DNA of 64,000 bases from positions 2,990,176 through 3,054,175 of the forward strand of contig NZ_CP051236.1 in NCBI RefSeq assembly GCF_017794765.1, read 5' to 3'. The notes below the pieces were generated by a model, which saw nothing but the letters and a program-made list of their open reading frames with translations, did no database searches and had not been told where the DNA came from. Below, one piece after another: positions 38,361 to 53,660 of this stretch. Within the stretch, counting starts at the first letter, position 1. Every line of letters starts with the position of its first letter. The stretch comes from Nitratireductor sp. GTDB lineage: Bacteria; Pseudomonadota; Alphaproteobacteria; Rhizobiales; Rhizobiaceae. Both the position numbers and the translations under genes were made by a program.

Positions 38361-38957
38361 CTAGCGCAGCATTGGCCACAGTGTTGCGGCCAGCGCGATG
38401 CCCATGGCGATGTTGAACCATTTGAGCCGAACGGGATCGGCCAGAAAGCCACGCAGCGCGACGCCGAAGCTGGCCCATACCGAAACACTTGGAAAATTGA
38501 CGATCACGAAAGCGAACGCCACCAGGAACACGGTGAGAAACGGTGCCGCCGGATCCGTGTAGACCGCCATCGCTGTCAGGGCCATGACCCATGCCTTGGG
38601 ATTGACCCATTGAAAGGCCGCCGCTTCAAGAAAAGTCATTGGCTCGGCTTTGCCGTCCCCCGCCTCTCCCAGCGCCCGCGACATGGCAATACGCCAGGCG
38701 AGATACAGAAGGTAGGCCCCGCCTGCGATCTTCAAAACGGTGTGGAGCGCCGGCACCGCGGTGAGCACTGCTCCAAGACCGAAGCCAACGGCGAGAAGCA
38801 GCGAGGCGAAACCACCGGCAATGCCAAGCATGTGCGGAATTGTACGCCGAAAACCGAAATTCACGCCGGACGCCAACAGCATGAAATTGTTGGGTCCCGG
38901 CGTAACAGAAGAAACGAAAGAGAAGACAAGCAAGGCGAGGAAGACCTCAGACGACAT
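38361..38957 (-). CDS. LysE/RhtB family amino acid exporter
   Basis: This 198-aa inner-membrane protein has the family signature FVSSVTPGPNNFMLLASGVNFG near residues 14-35. A repeated-helix pattern of about six segments follows, with ILK(I)AGGAYLLYLAWR near 75 and AAAFQWVNPKAWVMALTAM near 112. The family exports basic or other amino acids and homoserine lactones. The start at 38957 is the last plausible ATG before the first helix; upstream codons are open but unconvincing. The ilvH gene lies upstream on the same strand (129 nt), so co-transcription is possible. Confidence 0.92.
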   Translation of the reverse strand: MSSEVFLALLVFSFVSSVTPGPNNFMLLASGVNFGFRRTIPHMLGIAGGFASLLLAVGFGLGAVLTAVPALHTVLKIAGGAYLLYLAWRIAMSRALGEAGDGKAEPMTFLEAAAFQWVNPKAWVMALTAMAVYTDPAAPFLTVFLVAFAFVIVNFPSVSVWASFGVALRGFLADPVRLKWFNIAMGIALAATLWPMLR

Positions 38958-39085
38958 CCGTTTGCTCCCAGACAGCCACCCGAAAAGGGCACGAAGGTCA
39001 GTATTATTGACCCGGCTTCCGGCGCAGGCCATTTGAAACTTGTCCCCCTGCGCCGAAAAATTGTCCCTCGCCCCGCCCCGGTTCC

Positions 39086-39658
39086 TTACATTCCCTCGGG
39101 GCCCCGGTTCATTGCCGCAACACCCGTGCGGCACACCTCCACCAGGCCAAGCGGCTTCATGATGGCGATGAACTGCTCGATCTTGGAGACCCGCCCGGTG
39201 ATCTCAAAGATGAAATGCTCTGTATTGGCATCGATCACCTGAGCACGGAAAGCATCGGCCAGGCGCAGTGCCTCCACACGGTCGTCTCCCTGTCCCCTCA
39301 CCTTCACCAGCGCCAGCTCACGCTCCATCGGGCGATCATGGCCCCGTTCGTCCGCCACCACCGAGAGATCAACCACGCGGTGAACGGGCACGATGCGTTC
39401 GAGCTGATGCTTGATCTGCTCAAGAACATGGCCTGTGCCACGGGTCACGATCGTGATGCGCGAAAGATGCCTCTCGTGCTCCGTCTCCGAAACAGTCAGG
39501 CTGTCGATGTTGTAGCCGCGGCCGGAAAAAAGGCCGATCACGCGGGCGAGAACTCCCGGTTCGTTGTCGACAAGAACCGCCAGCGTGTGCGTTTGTGCGG
39601 CTTCGGTTTCCTTGGTGATGAAGTAGGCAGAGCCGGTGGGTTGTAGTTGCGCGTTCAT
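39086..39658 (-). CDS. ilvH: Acetolactate synthase, small regulatory subunit
   Basis: This 190-aa subunit regulates acetolactate synthase and confers valine feedback inhibition. The ACT domain opens HTLAVLVDNEPGVLARVIGLFSGRGYNIDSLTV (about residues 22-54), with the conserved Gly/Asn/Leu pattern, and the C-terminal domain contains VAADERGHDRPMEREL-like text. It follows ilvI on the same strand with 85 nt between. The start at 39658 gives MNAQLQPTG; upstream in-frame codons are not family-like. Confidence 0.95.
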   Translation of the reverse strand: MNAQLQPTGSAYFITKETEAAQTHTLAVLVDNEPGVLARVIGLFSGRGYNIDSLTVSETEHERHLSRITIVTRGTGHVLEQIKHQLERIVPVHRVVDLSVVADERGHDRPMERELALVKVRGQGDDRVEALRLADAFRAQVIDANTEHFIFEITGRVSKIEQFIAIMKPLGLVEVCRTGVAAMNRGPEGM

Positions 39659-39743
39659 TGCGTGAATCTCTTCTGCAAAACCATTGTGTAACTGACTGAA
39701 ATCAAAGCGTCTCTGCCACATCGTGAGACGCACCCCGATACCG

Positions 39744-41546
39744 TCAGACCAATTGCCGACCCTCTTCGTCGATCGCGTTGGCAACCGCTTCGTCACTTGC
39801 TTCGTCGGGAAGCAGCATCTCGTTGTGCGCCTTGCCGGAGGGGATCATGGGGAAACAGTTGGCGAGCGCCGCCACACGGCAATCGAAGATCACCGGCTTG
39901 TCCACCGCGATCATCTCGCGGATGGCATCGTCCAGCTCAGCCGGCTTGTCGCACCGGATTCCGTGACAGCCATAGGCTTCAGCCAGCTTGACGAAATCGG
40001 GCATGGCCTCCGTGTAGGAATGCGACAGCCGGTTTCCGTGCAGAAGCTGCTGCCACTGGCGTACCATGCCCATATACTGGTTGTTCAGGATGAATATCTT
40101 GATCGGCGCGTTGTGCTGAACCGCCGCGCTCATCTCCTGAATGGTCATCTGCACCGAGGCGTCACCGGCGATGTCTATCACCAGCGCGTCGGGATGCGCG
40201 ATCTGAACGCCCAGCGCGGCAGGCAGACCGTACCCCATCGTGCCCAGTCCGCCGGACGTCATCCAGCGATTGGGCGCTTCGAAGCCGAAATGCTGTGCCG
40301 CCCACATCTGATGCTGACCAACCTCGGTCGTCACATAGACCTCGCGATCCCTTGTCAGCTCGTAAAGCCGCTGGATCGCATACTGGGGCATGATCACGTC
40401 ATCGTTCGGCCGGTAAGCCAGGGAATCGCGAGCCCGCCAGATGTCGATCTGCGTCCACCAGGGCTTGAGCGCGGCCTTGTTGGGCTTGGCGGTCGCGCGC
40501 CACAGGCGCACCATATCTTCCAGTATCCGCCCGGCATCGCCGATGATCGGCACATCCACGCGAACATTCTTGTTGATCGAAGAGGGATCGATATCGATGT
40601 GGATCTTGCGCGAATTCGGAGAGAACGCGTCGAGGCGCCCGGTGATACGGTCATCGAAGCGCGCACCGACACACAGCATCACGTCGCAATCGTGCATGGC
40701 CATATTGGCTTCATAGGTGCCATGCATGCCCAGCATGCCGAGCCAATTGTCACCGGAAGCCGGATAGGCGCCCAGTCCCATCAGTGTCGACGTGATCGGA
40801 AAGCCCGTGAGATCCACCAGTTCGCGGAGCAAATGGCTTGCCTCCGGCCCGGCGTTGATCACACCGCCGCCCGAGTAGATCACGGGCCGCTTGGCATGCG
40901 CCATCAGCTCGATCGCCGCCTTTATCTGGTTGATGTCGCCCTGTTCCTGGGGCTGGTAGCTGGTACGAGGCGCCGTCTGCGGCGGAGTGTATGTCCCCTT
41001 GGCGAACTGGATATCCTTGGGAATGTCCACAACGACCGGTCCGGGGCGCCCCGTGGTCGCCACATGAAAAGCCTCATGGATGATCGCGGCGAGCTGGTTC
41101 ACGTCCTTCACGAGCCAGTTGTGCTTCGTACAGGGACGCGTGATACCCACCGTATCGCACTCCTGAAAGGCATCCGAACCGATCAGCGCCGTAGGCACCT
41201 GGCCGCTGATGCAGACGAGCGGAATGGAGTCCATCAGCGCATCCTGCAGCGGCGTCACCGCGTTGGTGGCGCCCGGGCCGGAGGTCACCAGCATGACGCC
41301 GGCCTTTCCGGTAGCCCGCGCATAGCCCTCGGCCGCGTGGCCTGCGCCCTGCTCATGACGCACCAGGATGTGCCGGACCTCTTCCTGTTGAAAGAGCTCA
41401 TCGTAGATGGGAAGCACAGCGCCGCCCGGATATCCGAATATAGTCTCGACCCCGTTATCCTTGAGCGCCTGCACAACGATTTCCGCACCCGTCATCTCGT
41501 TGTGGGCGGATGTATCCGCTGCTGGCTCCGACACTGCCTTGTTCAT
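39744..41546 (-). CDS. ilvI: Acetolactate synthase, large catalytic subunit
   Basis: This 600-aa ThDP-, FAD- and Mg-dependent enzyme makes acetolactate and acetohydroxybutyrate, the first committed step to branched-chain amino acids. TGAEIVVQALKDNGVETIFGYPGGAVLPIYDEL at residues 19-51 includes the region before the catalytic Glu (in LVRHEQGAGHAAEGYARATG). The ThDP motif is seen in IDIAGDASVQMTIQEMSAAV...ILNNQYMGMVRQWQQ. The length is normal. It is preceded by a leader ORF and attenuator terminator (41.62-41.77 kb) and followed by ilvH. Confidence 0.97.
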   Translation of the reverse strand: MNKAVSEPAADTSAHNEMTGAEIVVQALKDNGVETIFGYPGGAVLPIYDELFQQEEVRHILVRHEQGAGHAAEGYARATGKAGVMLVTSGPGATNAVTPLQDALMDSIPLVCISGQVPTALIGSDAFQECDTVGITRPCTKHNWLVKDVNQLAAIIHEAFHVATTGRPGPVVVDIPKDIQFAKGTYTPPQTAPRTSYQPQEQGDINQIKAAIELMAHAKRPVIYSGGGVINAGPEASHLLRELVDLTGFPITSTLMGLGAYPASGDNWLGMLGMHGTYEANMAMHDCDVMLCVGARFDDRITGRLDAFSPNSRKIHIDIDPSSINKNVRVDVPIIGDAGRILEDMVRLWRATAKPNKAALKPWWTQIDIWRARDSLAYRPNDDVIMPQYAIQRLYELTRDREVYVTTEVGQHQMWAAQHFGFEAPNRWMTSGGLGTMGYGLPAALGVQIAHPDALVIDIAGDASVQMTIQEMSAAVQHNAPIKIFILNNQYMGMVRQWQQLLHGNRLSHSYTEAMPDFVKLAEAYGCHGIRCDKPAELDDAIREMIAVDKPVIFDCRVAALANCFPMIPSGKAHNEMLLPDEASDEAVANAIDEEGRQLV

Positions 41547-41620
41547 CTTGGTCTTTCCGTTCTGTCTACCGGCGAAGTTGGTTTAGCCGCCCCGTGCCCC
41601 CAGGGAAACACCGGGCCAAT

Positions 41621-41643
41621 AAAAAAGGCCCCCGAAGGAGCCT
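41621..41643 (-). terminator. Attenuator terminator upstream of ilvI
   Basis: On the minus strand AGGCTCC pairs with GGGGCCT (one U-G wobble) around a TTCG loop and is followed directly by a T run (TTTTTT). It lies 33 nt after the leader ORF stop and 75 nt before the ilvI start, where it would stop transcription before ilvI unless leader translation stalls. Confidence 0.85.
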
Positions 41644-41675
41644 GTGTTTCGCGCATGGGAGCTTTCGCCAGACGG

Positions 41676-41729
41676 CTACGCCGCCTTGCCCATGCGCCTT
41701 CCTACGATAAGAATGTTTCGTGTCATCAT
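41676..41729 (-). CDS. Branched-chain amino acid leader peptide (attenuation)
   Basis: A 17-codon ORF reads MMTRNILIVGRRMGKAA with a TAG stop. Ile-Leu-Ile-Val at residues 6-9 are exactly the amino acids made by the pathway, as in classical ilv leader peptides that stall ribosomes when charged tRNA is scarce. The peptide is basic and otherwise featureless. A 9-bp perfect stem joins its codons for Arg-Met-Gly (41689-41697) to CCCATGCGC (41651-41659). The predicted transcription start is about 2 nt before the first ATG, so it may be leaderless. A second ATG follows immediately. I did not find a long antiterminator pairing by eye. Confidence 0.8.
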   Translation of the reverse strand: MMTRNILIVGRRMGKAA

Positions 41730-41737
41730 GGTGGCGC

Positions 41738-41766
41738 ACAATAAGGTTGCTTGAGCGGTCCGTCAA
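41738..41766 (-). promoter_or_regulatory. Sigma70-type promoter of the ilvI leader
   Basis: Minus strand TTGACG (41766-41761), 17-bp spacer, TATTGT (41743-41738). Both boxes are near consensus and spacing is optimal. The expected start near 41731 places the leader ORF start codon almost at the 5' end of the RNA. Confidence 0.7.
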
Positions 41767-41881: not shown

Positions 41882-43777
41882 ATGTATTTGGAAGGCGGAA
41901 CGACGCAGGGCGAAACCACGTCGCAGGAACGGCGCGCTGCCGATCAGCCGCGCCGGCGCCTGCTCGGTCATGTGGTGCACTGTGATGGCGCCCGTGCGAC
42001 CATTGCTGCCGATACCGAAGTAGACGATGCAGGCCAGTCGAACTACTGGACTGTCGGCAAGATGATCTCCATCAACATGGGAACGACGCGCACGGTCGGC
42101 CTTGTCTACGCTGTCGAACGGCCGCAACATCGCTGGCGCGATGGCGAAGCCAATCCCATTGCCATCTCCGTCGAACTGGTCGGTGAGGTCCGTGACCGTG
42201 GTTCGGAACCCGTCTTCGACCGCGGCATCACCGAGTACCCTTATGTCGGTGCGCCCGCTCATCGTATCCGTTCGCGCGACTTGCAGGCGGTCTATGATCT
42301 CGCCGGTCGTCAGCAGGCGGTTATCGGCAAGCTTTCGCAGGACGAGGCCATCGATGCGTGCATAGCCGTTGACGACACGCTCAATCGTCATTTCGCGGTG
42401 GTCGGCACCACGGGCGTGGGCAAGTCCTCCGCTGTTTCGCTGCTCCTGCGCAAGACCATAGCCTCCCGCCCGGATCTGCGCGTCCTGATCCTCGACCCGC
42501 ACAATGAGTTTGCCTCGGCGCTGCCCGAACATGCGGTTCGGGTCGACACGAACACGCTGGACCTTCCCTTCTGGCTCTTTCGCCTGGAAGAGCTTGTCGA
42601 GGTTCTTTTCAGGGGCCGCGAGCCCGCTCCCGAAGAGGTGGAGCTTCTGCGCGACCTCATTCCCAACGCCAAGCATCACTACCGCAACCCCGGTACGGCG
42701 GCCGCCCTGCGACGCAGCAATGATGCCAGCGGCCTGACAGCCGACACACCCGTGCCCTATCGCATGGCTGACGTGCTCAAGGAGATCGACGAACGGATAG
42801 GCCAGCTCGAAAACAAGGTGGAACGGCCGCTCTACCGCAGCCTGAAGACGCGCATCGAAGCAGCCATCAATGATCCGCGCTACCGCTTCATGTTTGCCGC
42901 CCGGGTTATCGAAGACACCATCCACGAAACCATCGGGAGGCTTTTCCGCGTCCCGAGTCATGGCAAGACCGTGACCTGTTTCGAAATGGCGGGAATGCCG
43001 CCGGAAGTGGTCAATTCCGTCTGCTCGGTTATGGCCCGTCTGGCTTTTGACCTTGCACTGTGGAGCGAGGGGAAACTCAATCTGCTCGTCGTCTGCGAAG
43101 AGGCGCATCGATATATGCCGGCCGATCCGCGTCTTGGCTTTGCACCCACGCGCCATGCTTTGGCACGCATCGCAAAGGAAGGGCGTAAATACGGTTGCTA
43201 TCTCGGCGTTGTGACCCAGCGGCCGGGCGAGCTTGACCCAACCGTTCTCTCGCAGTGCTCAACCGTCTTCGCCATGCGGCTTGCCAATGATCAGGACCAG
43301 GCGATCATCCGCTCCGCGATTGCGGATTCGTCCGCCTCCATGCTCTCCTTCCTGTCTGCCATGGGCCGCCGGGAAGCGATTGCCTTCGGTGAGGGCGTGG
43401 CGACGACCATGCGGATGAAGTTCGAATCTCTTCCGCCACACGCCCTGCCGGGCGTGCGCGATACCGACAGGCGCAAGGCCTCCAACCCCGAAGAGATCGA
43501 CCGAGAAGTGGACCTTGTCTCCATCGTCAGCCGTTTGCGTGACACCGGGCGCACACTTCGCGCGCAGGCGGAGACACCCCCGCATATCGGAGCACCCGTT
43601 CCTTCCAGTCTGCAGGCTGGTGATCGGGGTTATGCCGCCGGCTATGTCAGCCAGCCGGGTGAAACCGGGGTGAGCCGGCCATCGGCACTGTCCCCCTTGC
43701 ATCCGGCGGGTGAACCGTCGCTCGGCCGCTACACGAGCGCGGCCCCCAACCCCCGGGGAAAATTCGGAACCCGCTGA
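41882..43777 (+). CDS. HerA-like ATPase (HAS-barrel plus DUF87)
   Basis: The product is 631 aa. The N-terminal part (about residues 25-120) reads as an HAS-barrel (LLGHVVHCDGARATIAADTE, WTVGKMISINMGTTRTVGLVYAVE). The ATPase core follows: Walker A VVGTTGVGKSSAVSLLLRK near residue 177, Walker B LNLLVVCEEAHRYMPA near 400, then GVVTQRPGELDPTVLSQCSTVFAMRL (arginine-finger/sensor region). It belongs to the FtsK-HerA superfamily of hexameric translocases. No NurA nuclease neighbour is present. The C-terminal about 90 residues are low-complexity. It ends with an 18-bp tandem repeat that copies its own stop codon. Confidence 0.85.
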   Translation: MYLEGGTTQGETTSQERRAADQPRRRLLGHVVHCDGARATIAADTEVDDAGQSNYWTVGKMISINMGTTRTVGLVYAVERPQHRWRDGEANPIAISVELVGEVRDRGSEPVFDRGITEYPYVGAPAHRIRSRDLQAVYDLAGRQQAVIGKLSQDEAIDACIAVDDTLNRHFAVVGTTGVGKSSAVSLLLRKTIASRPDLRVLILDPHNEFASALPEHAVRVDTNTLDLPFWLFRLEELVEVLFRGREPAPEEVELLRDLIPNAKHHYRNPGTAAALRRSNDASGLTADTPVPYRMADVLKEIDERIGQLENKVERPLYRSLKTRIEAAINDPRYRFMFAARVIEDTIHETIGRLFRVPSHGKTVTCFEMAGMPPEVVNSVCSVMARLAFDLALWSEGKLNLLVVCEEAHRYMPADPRLGFAPTRHALARIAKEGRKYGCYLGVVTQRPGELDPTVLSQCSTVFAMRLANDQDQAIIRSAIADSSASMLSFLSAMGRREAIAFGEGVATTMRMKFESLPPHALPGVRDTDRRKASNPEEIDREVDLVSIVSRLRDTGRTLRAQAETPPHIGAPVPSSLQAGDRGYAAGYVSQPGETGVSRPSALSPLHPAGEPSLGRYTSAAPNPRGKFGTR

Positions 43778-53137: not shown

Positions 53138-53329
53138 GATTTTTCCCTCGTTTCAAATCGTGGGCCCCTTCGACACGATCCGGCCAACAACGCAACCTCA
53201 ACGTTTGCCAAAGTTCTTCCCACACCGTTGCAGACATTCCGCAAAGCATGACGTCAAGTCAATGCCGAAAAGACTTTTCGCCAGAATCCCCCTTTTCTTG
53301 CTCCGGCGGCCTCACTATATTCGCACCGT

Positions 53330-53660
53330 CGGCTCGACCGACTATGGCGATAAACTGCCGGTGTAATAAACCATTCGGACCCGGGGGCAGTGCCCGGCGC
53401 CTCCACCACAAACCGTCGAAGACCATGCGTCCGCTGACGGCTTCTGATGGGGGCGAAACAGGATCGACGAGGGTGTAAAGATCGGACTTTCGCTCGGCAT
53501 GATACCACCGTTATCGGGTCAAACCAGTAGTTGCAAACGACAACTATGCGGAGGCACGTCTCGCTGCTTAATGCAGTGCGACAGCTTCACTTAAACTCCT
53601 GAGGGTTCGCACCTTCAGGCGGGGTTCGGAGGCACCTGGCAACAGAAGCCTCCACTCCTC
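53330..53660 (+). ncRNA. ssrA: Transfer-messenger RNA, permuted two-piece type
   Basis: The gene is circularly permuted, as in alphaproteobacteria. The acceptor piece comes first and ends GCCCGGCGCCTCCACCA at 53408. An intervening loop (53409-53448) follows, then the coding piece starts GGGGGCGAAACAGGATCGAC at 53449, whose first seven bases pair with CGCCTCC of the acceptor piece. The tag frame starts GCA at 53533 and encodes ANDNYAEARLAA before TAA at 53569. It rescues stalled ribosomes and tags the released peptide for proteolysis. A TATATT box at 53316 is a likely -10. Outer ends are approximate. Confidence 0.93.

Follow-up and report, generated by a model that had tools for sequence, protein, structure and literature searches.

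A leader of the ilvI-ilvN operon in Nitratireductor very probably acts as a ribosome-mediated transcription-attenuation element. Its parts are conserved among relatives, its first stem (helix 1) covaries, and ilvI lies downstream. The full-length match to a described RNA family, the conserved control codons, the covarying stem, the conserved terminator and the downstream ilvI gene all bear out the attenuation leader that an earlier note on this DNA had proposed. Units of the same build are also found before transporter genes.

Results

The element lies in the window, by which we mean the whole 64,000-nt stretch of DNA analyzed (positions 2990176-3054175 of a 3.70-Mb single-contig Nitratireductor genome). 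The sigma70-like promoter, the ORF with Ile-Leu-Ile-Val codons, the 9-bp stem and the TTCG terminator named in the earlier note are all present on the minus strand, as seen in the sequence, in the scans and in the fold (Table 1). The terminator is 74 nt upstream of ilvI-ilvN on that strand, and the leader ORF begins 1-2 nt past the predicted transcription start. Helix 1 encloses an inner hairpin (approximately 41686-41670), which holds the stop codon, and a small hairpin at 41669-41660. Between 41500 and 41900, the promoter scan returned one site compared with 0.1 (sd 0.3) in shuffled sequence, and the terminator scan one site compared with 0.6 (sd 0.7), which is not significant by itself. When folded, the leader RNA of the window had a z-score of -3.34, with 1 of 200 shuffles being equally good.

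Table 1. Features of the leader locus in the window, and the leader loci linked to MFS genes.
Feature	Position (strand) or loci	Description and evidence
sigma70-like promoter	41738..41766 (-)	TTGACG 41766-41761, spacer 17 nt, TATTGT 41743-41738; promoter scan
Atu_C8 (RF02502) leader RNA, full model length	41610..41730 (-)	cmscan 105.9 bits, E 3.2e-22
Leader ORF MMTRNILIVGRRMGKAA, 17 codons	41729-41679 (-), stop TAG 41678-41676	sequence; comparable ORFs in relatives
Control codons ATT CTT ATC GTA (Ile Leu Ile Val)	41703..41714 (-)	sequence, conservation
Helix 1	41651..41697 (-)	9-bp: GCGCATGGG (41697-41689) with CCCATGCGC (41659-41651); fold
Intrinsic terminator AGGCTCC-TTCG-GGGGCCT and T run	41621..41643 (-)	stem 41643-41626, TTCG loop, T run to 41621; scan, fold
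ilvI, acetolactate synthase large subunit (putative regulated gene)	39744..41546 (-)	NCBIfam NF006581, 1214.9 bits, cut-off 974
ilvN/ilvH, acetolactate synthase small subunit	39086..39796 (-), ORF as listed	NCBIfam NF008864, 221.1 bits, cut-off 119
Divergent DUF87/HerA-type ATPase gene	41882-43777 (+)	other flank of the leader, opposite ilvI
MFS-linked leader loci	L022, L023, L041, L042, L129-L135, L137-L139, L141, L145, L147-L150, L152	
MFS-linked leader loci, continued	L166-L168, L173, L174, L176-L178, L180	

The true start of ilvN/ilvH is probably inside the ORF given in Table 1, since the family match begins at residue 68. A Sinorhizobium meliloti record (L204) shares the gene order of DUF87 gene, leader, ilvI (acetolactate synthase large subunit) and ilvN, and its leader has the same layout as that of the window, with TTGAC 37 nt 5′ of the AUG. 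Elsewhere in the window, a LysE-type translocator gene (38361-39134, minus strand) is found directly 3′ of ilvN, and an alphaproteobacterial (permuted) tmRNA gene can be seen at 53289-53656 on the plus strand (RF01849, 302 bits).

The Rfam family RF02502 (Atu_C8) covers the leader from end to end (model positions 1-122 of 122), exceeding the 50-bit gathering score along its whole length and reaching 11 nt past 41621, where the earlier note had placed the end. This is the sole RF02502 match in its genome. A match, the promoter and the leader ORF are all present in 10 of 10 Nitratireductor genomes, which together with the full-length match settles that the element is real. In the window's own family (f1), 381 of the 394 sampled genomes contain RF02502 matches, 374 of them over the cut-off, and five of the 13 genomes that lack a match are 1.4-1.6-Mb genomes of a single genus. 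Matches were also obtained in 121 of 136 genomes (90 over the cut-off) from f6, a second family that includes Pelagibacterium and Devosia, and in 161 of 297 genomes sampled across the order (E ≤ 0.001; 49 over the cut-off). The element in the window is a full-length member of a described RNA family, within a regulatory class that had already been predicted.

We inspected 182 leader loci, a non-random set made up of search returns and of regions picked for a wide range of families and for second copies. The gene downstream is ilvI in 150 loci and an MFS gene in 30, in all 180 cases on the same strand as the leader; of the other two loci, one is upstream of an ABC-exporter-like gene and one is cut by a contig end. 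The estimated start of the downstream gene is at most 176 nt from the end of the RF02502 match (median 22). Rfam assigns the family the type "Gene; sRNA", and if that label were followed the element would be an independent trans-encoded sRNA gene that merely adjoins ilvI. The constant sense position 5′ of ilvI or a transporter gene, together with the conserved ORF and its branched-chain codons, makes such a reading barely credible.

The branched-chain codons, whose conservation in relatives the earlier note had made a touchstone of its reading, are fixed just 5′ of helix 1. Counted back from this helix, codons -3, -4 and -6 specify Ile, Leu or Val in every one of the 58 distinct f1 ilvI leaders, and codon -5 does so in 57 (locus L098, which lacks the anchor, was excluded from the codon and promoter counts). 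Across the 10 Nitratireductor genomes the control codons are identical in nucleotide sequence, third positions included (pN = pS = 0). The rare Val codon GTA is enriched, accounting for 30 of the 125 Val codons in f1 ilvI leaders compared with 74 of 1283 (5.8%) in the ORFs of the window. Two hallmarks of an attenuator can therefore be recognized, namely a leader ORF whose run of Ile/Leu/Val codons is kept in relatives and an intrinsic terminator between that ORF and a biosynthetic gene, ilvI (NF006581).

Compensatory changes, which the earlier note had proposed to look for among relatives, are seen in helix 1. In a 57-sequence structure alignment drawn from the 182 loci, 97.3% of the cells of this helix are paired and seven of its nine pairs have changed on both sides. 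The covariation score of the whole structure is 0.350, compared with 0.188 (sd 0.009) for shuffled and at most 0.104 for slid alignments; cruder covariation measures are less decisive, with 13 and 49 of 500 shuffles reaching the observed both-sided pairs and pair types, respectively. The terminator pairs vary mainly on one side, and five T residues of the T run are invariant in 57 of 57 aligned leaders. As aligned, the inner hairpin has 67.5% of its cells paired. RNAalifold predicted helix 1 and the terminator hairpin (in a slightly shifted register) and did not predict the inner hairpin.

The near-leaderless start claimed in the earlier note is backed by the conserved distance between promoter and AUG, the start itself being predicted. 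If an in-frame start that suits a TTGAC is preferred, 64 of 66 f1 ilvI leaders have their start codon 36-38 nt from TTGAC; this choice favours the leaderless reading, and a mechanical count that takes the 5′-most ATG or GTG was kept alongside, giving the leaderless distance (35-38 nt) in 51 of 66. Two loci, L159 (given a TTG start by the script, though an ATG stands at the usual place) and L162 (without upstream sequence), were scored as misses. The alternative of a conventional 5′ UTR, with the true start further upstream and the ORF initiated from a Shine-Dalgarno sequence, would fit many ilvI leaders from other families of the order, where a Shine-Dalgarno-like motif occurs in 36 of 83 and no TTGAC is found 30-45 nt before an in-frame start in 62 of 83. 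Within f1, by contrast, only 1 of 66 ilvI leaders has such a motif, the promoter-to-AUG distance is nearly fixed while the leader peptides differ in length and N-terminal sequence, and the first position of the RF02502 model falls on the G of the AUG in many leaders, or 1 nt ahead of that codon in the window, all of which renders a conventional 5′ UTR highly improbable here. The Atu_C8 seed is reportedly based on RNA sequencing in Agrobacterium. These observations suggest that the ilv leaders of the window's family conserve, as a design, the bare-AUG arrangement known from trpL. As TTGAC is placed at 35-38 nt in 16 of the 83 ilvI leaders outside f1, the layout is typical of this family and not restricted to it.

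In the attenuation mechanism that we propose, RNA polymerase would initiate 0-2 nt ahead of the leader AUG, and a ribosome would load on the nearly bare 5′ AUG and translate the Ile-Leu-Ile-Val codons. With ample charged tRNA, the ribosome would proceed to the stop codon within the inner hairpin and the terminator would form, releasing an RNA of about 110 nt that would match the species listed elsewhere under the sRNA name Atu_C8. When the supply of charged Ile-, Leu- or Val-tRNA falls short, the ribosome would stall just 5′ of helix 1, and polymerase would read through into ilvI by a predicted defeat of the terminator. Helix 1 starts two codons past the last control codon, so that a halted ribosome would cover and mask its 5′ arm.

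A classical attenuator requires a structure that competes with the terminator. We looked for a pairing partner of the terminator arm by folding the window leader with ribosome footprints (on Ile6 to Val9 and on the stop codon) and as truncated transcripts, by a duplex search in 33 selected leaders, by mutual information across 172 distinct leaders and across a subset of 89 that belong to f1 or are MFS-linked, and by computing partition functions of 164 distinct leaders under four ribosome states. None of these approaches revealed a conserved one. For the mutual-information alignment, identical leaders were collapsed and those shorter than 105 nt dropped, which kept 172 of 182. The antiterminator search put forward in the earlier note thus yielded no conserved or stable alternative pairing. 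With a footprint on the control codons of the 58 f1 ilvI leaders the terminator still forms (with average probabilities of 0.94 and 0.97, depending on which of two footprint sizes is used), as it does with a footprint at the stop (0.95). Before the 3′ arm of the terminator is made, its 5′ arm is tied up with a probability of 0.42 for a halted ribosome, 0.21 for no ribosome and 0.44 for a ribosome at the stop in f1 ilvI leaders; occupancy is equal at the control codons and at the stop, and hence does not discriminate between these two states. The best duplex has -8.0 kcal/mol in the window leader and -14 to -16 kcal/mol in isolated leaders of other families (L048, L055 and L069). Inspection of the alignment by eye also dismissed the idea that the 3′ arm of helix 1 mimics the terminator arm, a resemblance that fails in most f1 leaders. 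Given that the terminator stays formed under the footprints and that no conserved partner was found in these searches, a classical two-state switch is unproven. From the position of helix 1 we infer that its formation is what the ribosome controls; the link to termination may be kinetic or made through pairings too weak for these searches.

The promoter-leader-terminator unit also precedes Bcr/CflA-type MFS genes, in 30 of the 182 loci of a sample in which second copies were sought (Table 1). Among 18 f1 genomes with two matches, the second copy is found before an MFS gene in 11, a second ilvI in five, an ABC-exporter-like gene in one and a contig end in one; one of these MFS-linked copies, L180, scores only 30.5 bits with RF02502. 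An MFS-linked copy is present in at least 19 of the 136 genomes from f6. The MFS protein of Pelagibacterium matches TIGR00710 (Bcr/CflA family) with 217.0 bits (cut-off 200.9), and that of a Rhizobium etli plasmid has the same model as its best match, at 168.4 bits and under the cut-off. The R. etli plasmid gene is annotated as "MFS transporter" and its counterpart in IE4803 as "Bcr/CflA subfamily drug resistance transporter protein". The placement of L131 and L173 in a tree of the 30 MFS proteins was disregarded, as both are on long branches and probably in the wrong frame.

A scan for the stem variant with a TAG stop returned 23 loci, 12 before ilvI and 11 before an MFS gene, a ratio that is no census as the pattern was built from such copies. 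Nine of the 11 MFS loci were already among the 30 (in Devosia, Pelagibacterium, Paramesorhizobium deserti and one unclassified MAG); those beyond the 30 are in Nisaea nitritireducens and in a MAG titled Kaiparowitsia. Kaiparowitsia implicata is a cyanobacterium, and the locus in the MAG of that title (L191) carries a Devosia-like leader-MFS unit, perhaps on a mis-binned contig.

The promoter spacing is preserved in the MFS-linked copies. With the fitting start, the promoter distance is 35-37 nt in 19 of 19 f6 copies and 36-37 nt in 10 of 11 f1 copies; under the mechanical rule (35-38 nt) the counts are 18 of 19 and 8 of 11. The leader ORF has 18-19 codons in 29 of 30 copies, L180 being the exception. 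Plasmids of Rhizobium gallicum and Phyllobacterium sp. also carry a leader-MFS unit, in which the AUG follows TTGAC at 36 nt and the ORF is MKIAMVLVVVIGRMGRMV or similar. On a plasmid of R. etli IE4771 (L205, 3945-4115), the MFS-linked ORF has lost its usual stop and extends to 30 codons, which counts against an intact switch in every MFS-linked copy.

The MFS-linked leaders of f6 bear a helix arm of the f1 type, GCGCATGGGC or close to it, whereas the arm of the f6 ilvI leaders is GCGCATCGGC, GCGCATCGCA or GCGCATTGGC in 18 of 18. Their mean identity is 0.62 to the ilvI leaders of f1 compared with 0.54 to those of f6. The f1-type arm and the higher identity to f1 suggest that promoter, leader and MFS gene moved together, by horizontal spread. 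Most control codons of the f6 MFS-linked leaders are Val (-3 in 19 of 19, -4 in 18 and -5 in 16), with Met or Phe at -6 in 14 and with GTA making up 36 of 53 Val codons.

Like leaders were observed before other genes as well. At L175 (match at 1141-1260), a leader with the ORF MMRMKTALMVVIGRMGRMV is found upstream of the ABC-exporter-like gene, and other leaders (L040, L155, L158, L159 and L160) stand before a second ilvI, which is 70-78% identical to the ilvI of the window. Several leader peptides of these second ilvI genes (MKIAMV...) resemble those of f1 MFS-linked leaders, and on this resemblance the MFS leader may derive from the second-ilvI paralog.

No earlier report linking an ilv-type leader to efflux genes was found in a small search of the open-access literature, and the transporter-linked copies look new, attenuation at these genes being a prediction. 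One reading of these copies, to which we give slightly less than an even chance, sees in the leaderless ilv attenuator a mobile cassette for gene control, whose promoter, leader ORF, stem and terminator were copied together before Bcr/CflA-type efflux genes and one ABC-exporter-like gene. Through the valine-rich control codons, efflux would then set in once charged Val-tRNA declines or a drug halts ribosomes on the leader, and the ilvI leader of the window would be the biosynthetic parent form.

A trans-acting RNA or peptide, which the earlier note had also raised, gained no support. Such a dual-function leader would attenuate in cis and in addition release the terminated Atu_C8 RNA or the 17-aa peptide to act in trans, as reported for rnTrpL and peTrpL of S. 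meliloti; the near-leaderless architecture resembles that of trpL as described in the available parts of two sources (PMC7298713, PMC10117765), and RF02502 bears an sRNA label in Rfam. No orphan copy occurs among the 181 loci that could be classified (180 ilvI or MFS, one ABC-exporter-like), although leader copies too diverged for the RF02502 model would escape this count. The unpaired segments are the least conserved, with a mean column conservation of 0.56-0.67 for N-terminal codons, linker and loop compared with 0.98-0.99 for the arms of helix 1 and 0.97-0.99 for those of the terminator. Constraint on the peptide beyond the control and stem codons was inconsistent across six genome groups, in which N-terminal pN/pS was 0.44, 0.32, 0.99, 0, 0.73 and 1.84, all from small numbers. 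The group with synonymous changes only (pN 0.000, pS 0.200) and those at 0.44 and 0.32 would suit a selected peptide, while the values of 0.99, 0.73 and 1.84 in the other three do not fit one. On balance we consider a dual function unlikely. Poor conservation does not argue decisively against a trans role, since the function of peTrpL is described, in the part of the source available, as conserved despite low sequence conservation (PMC7298713).

Discussion

The leader of the window shares with Atu_C8 the full-length match, helix 1, the inner hairpin and the terminator, and departs from the Rfam entry in one respect: the family is filed as an sRNA gene, whereas 181 of 181 classifiable copies here are directly 5′ of a gene. 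Corynebacterium, where a leader of similar composition has been described, belongs to another phylum. In the accessible portions of that description (PMC10272879), the ilvB-II motif has a uORF, usually 15-17 codons long and with many branched-chain codons, followed by a first stem and a terminator; it differs in that an antiterminator is modelled there, and it is said there to occur once per genome, whereas leaders of the Atu_C8 type are also found before transporter genes.

Attenuators of ilv genes in alphaproteobacteria were predicted by Vitreschak et al. (2004), as cited in two sources available in part (PMC1273637, PMC2573895); an S. meliloti element is tabulated there as "ilvIH cis regulatory" with reference to that work. 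Caulobacter ilvIH is described, in the available text of a further source, as attenuated via a leader CDS, ilvL (PMC4117421). The alphaproteobacterial ilvIH/ilvB attenuators outlined in these partial sources (PMC1273637, PMC2573895, PMC4117421) have in common with the present element a leader peptide and ilvI or ilvB downstream. The trpL leader of S. meliloti (rnTrpL/peTrpL) resembles it in its leaderless start, short leader peptide and terminated small RNA, as far as the available sections report (PMC7298713, PMC10117765), and differs in having Trp codons in place of Ile/Leu/Val codons and in the trans action reported for it.

What a specialist might not have expected is the family-wide leaderless geometry and, above all, the transporter-linked copies. 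A catalogued "sRNA" family is tied here to a plain cis job, and Atu_C8 reads in expression data may consequently gauge attenuation of ilvIN. A cassette placed before efflux-type genes would couple a pump to the amino-acid or ribosome state of the cell. If the cassette reading is true, what induces the pump would be the action of an inhibitor of translation or of a synthetase, with no drug-binding regulator involved.
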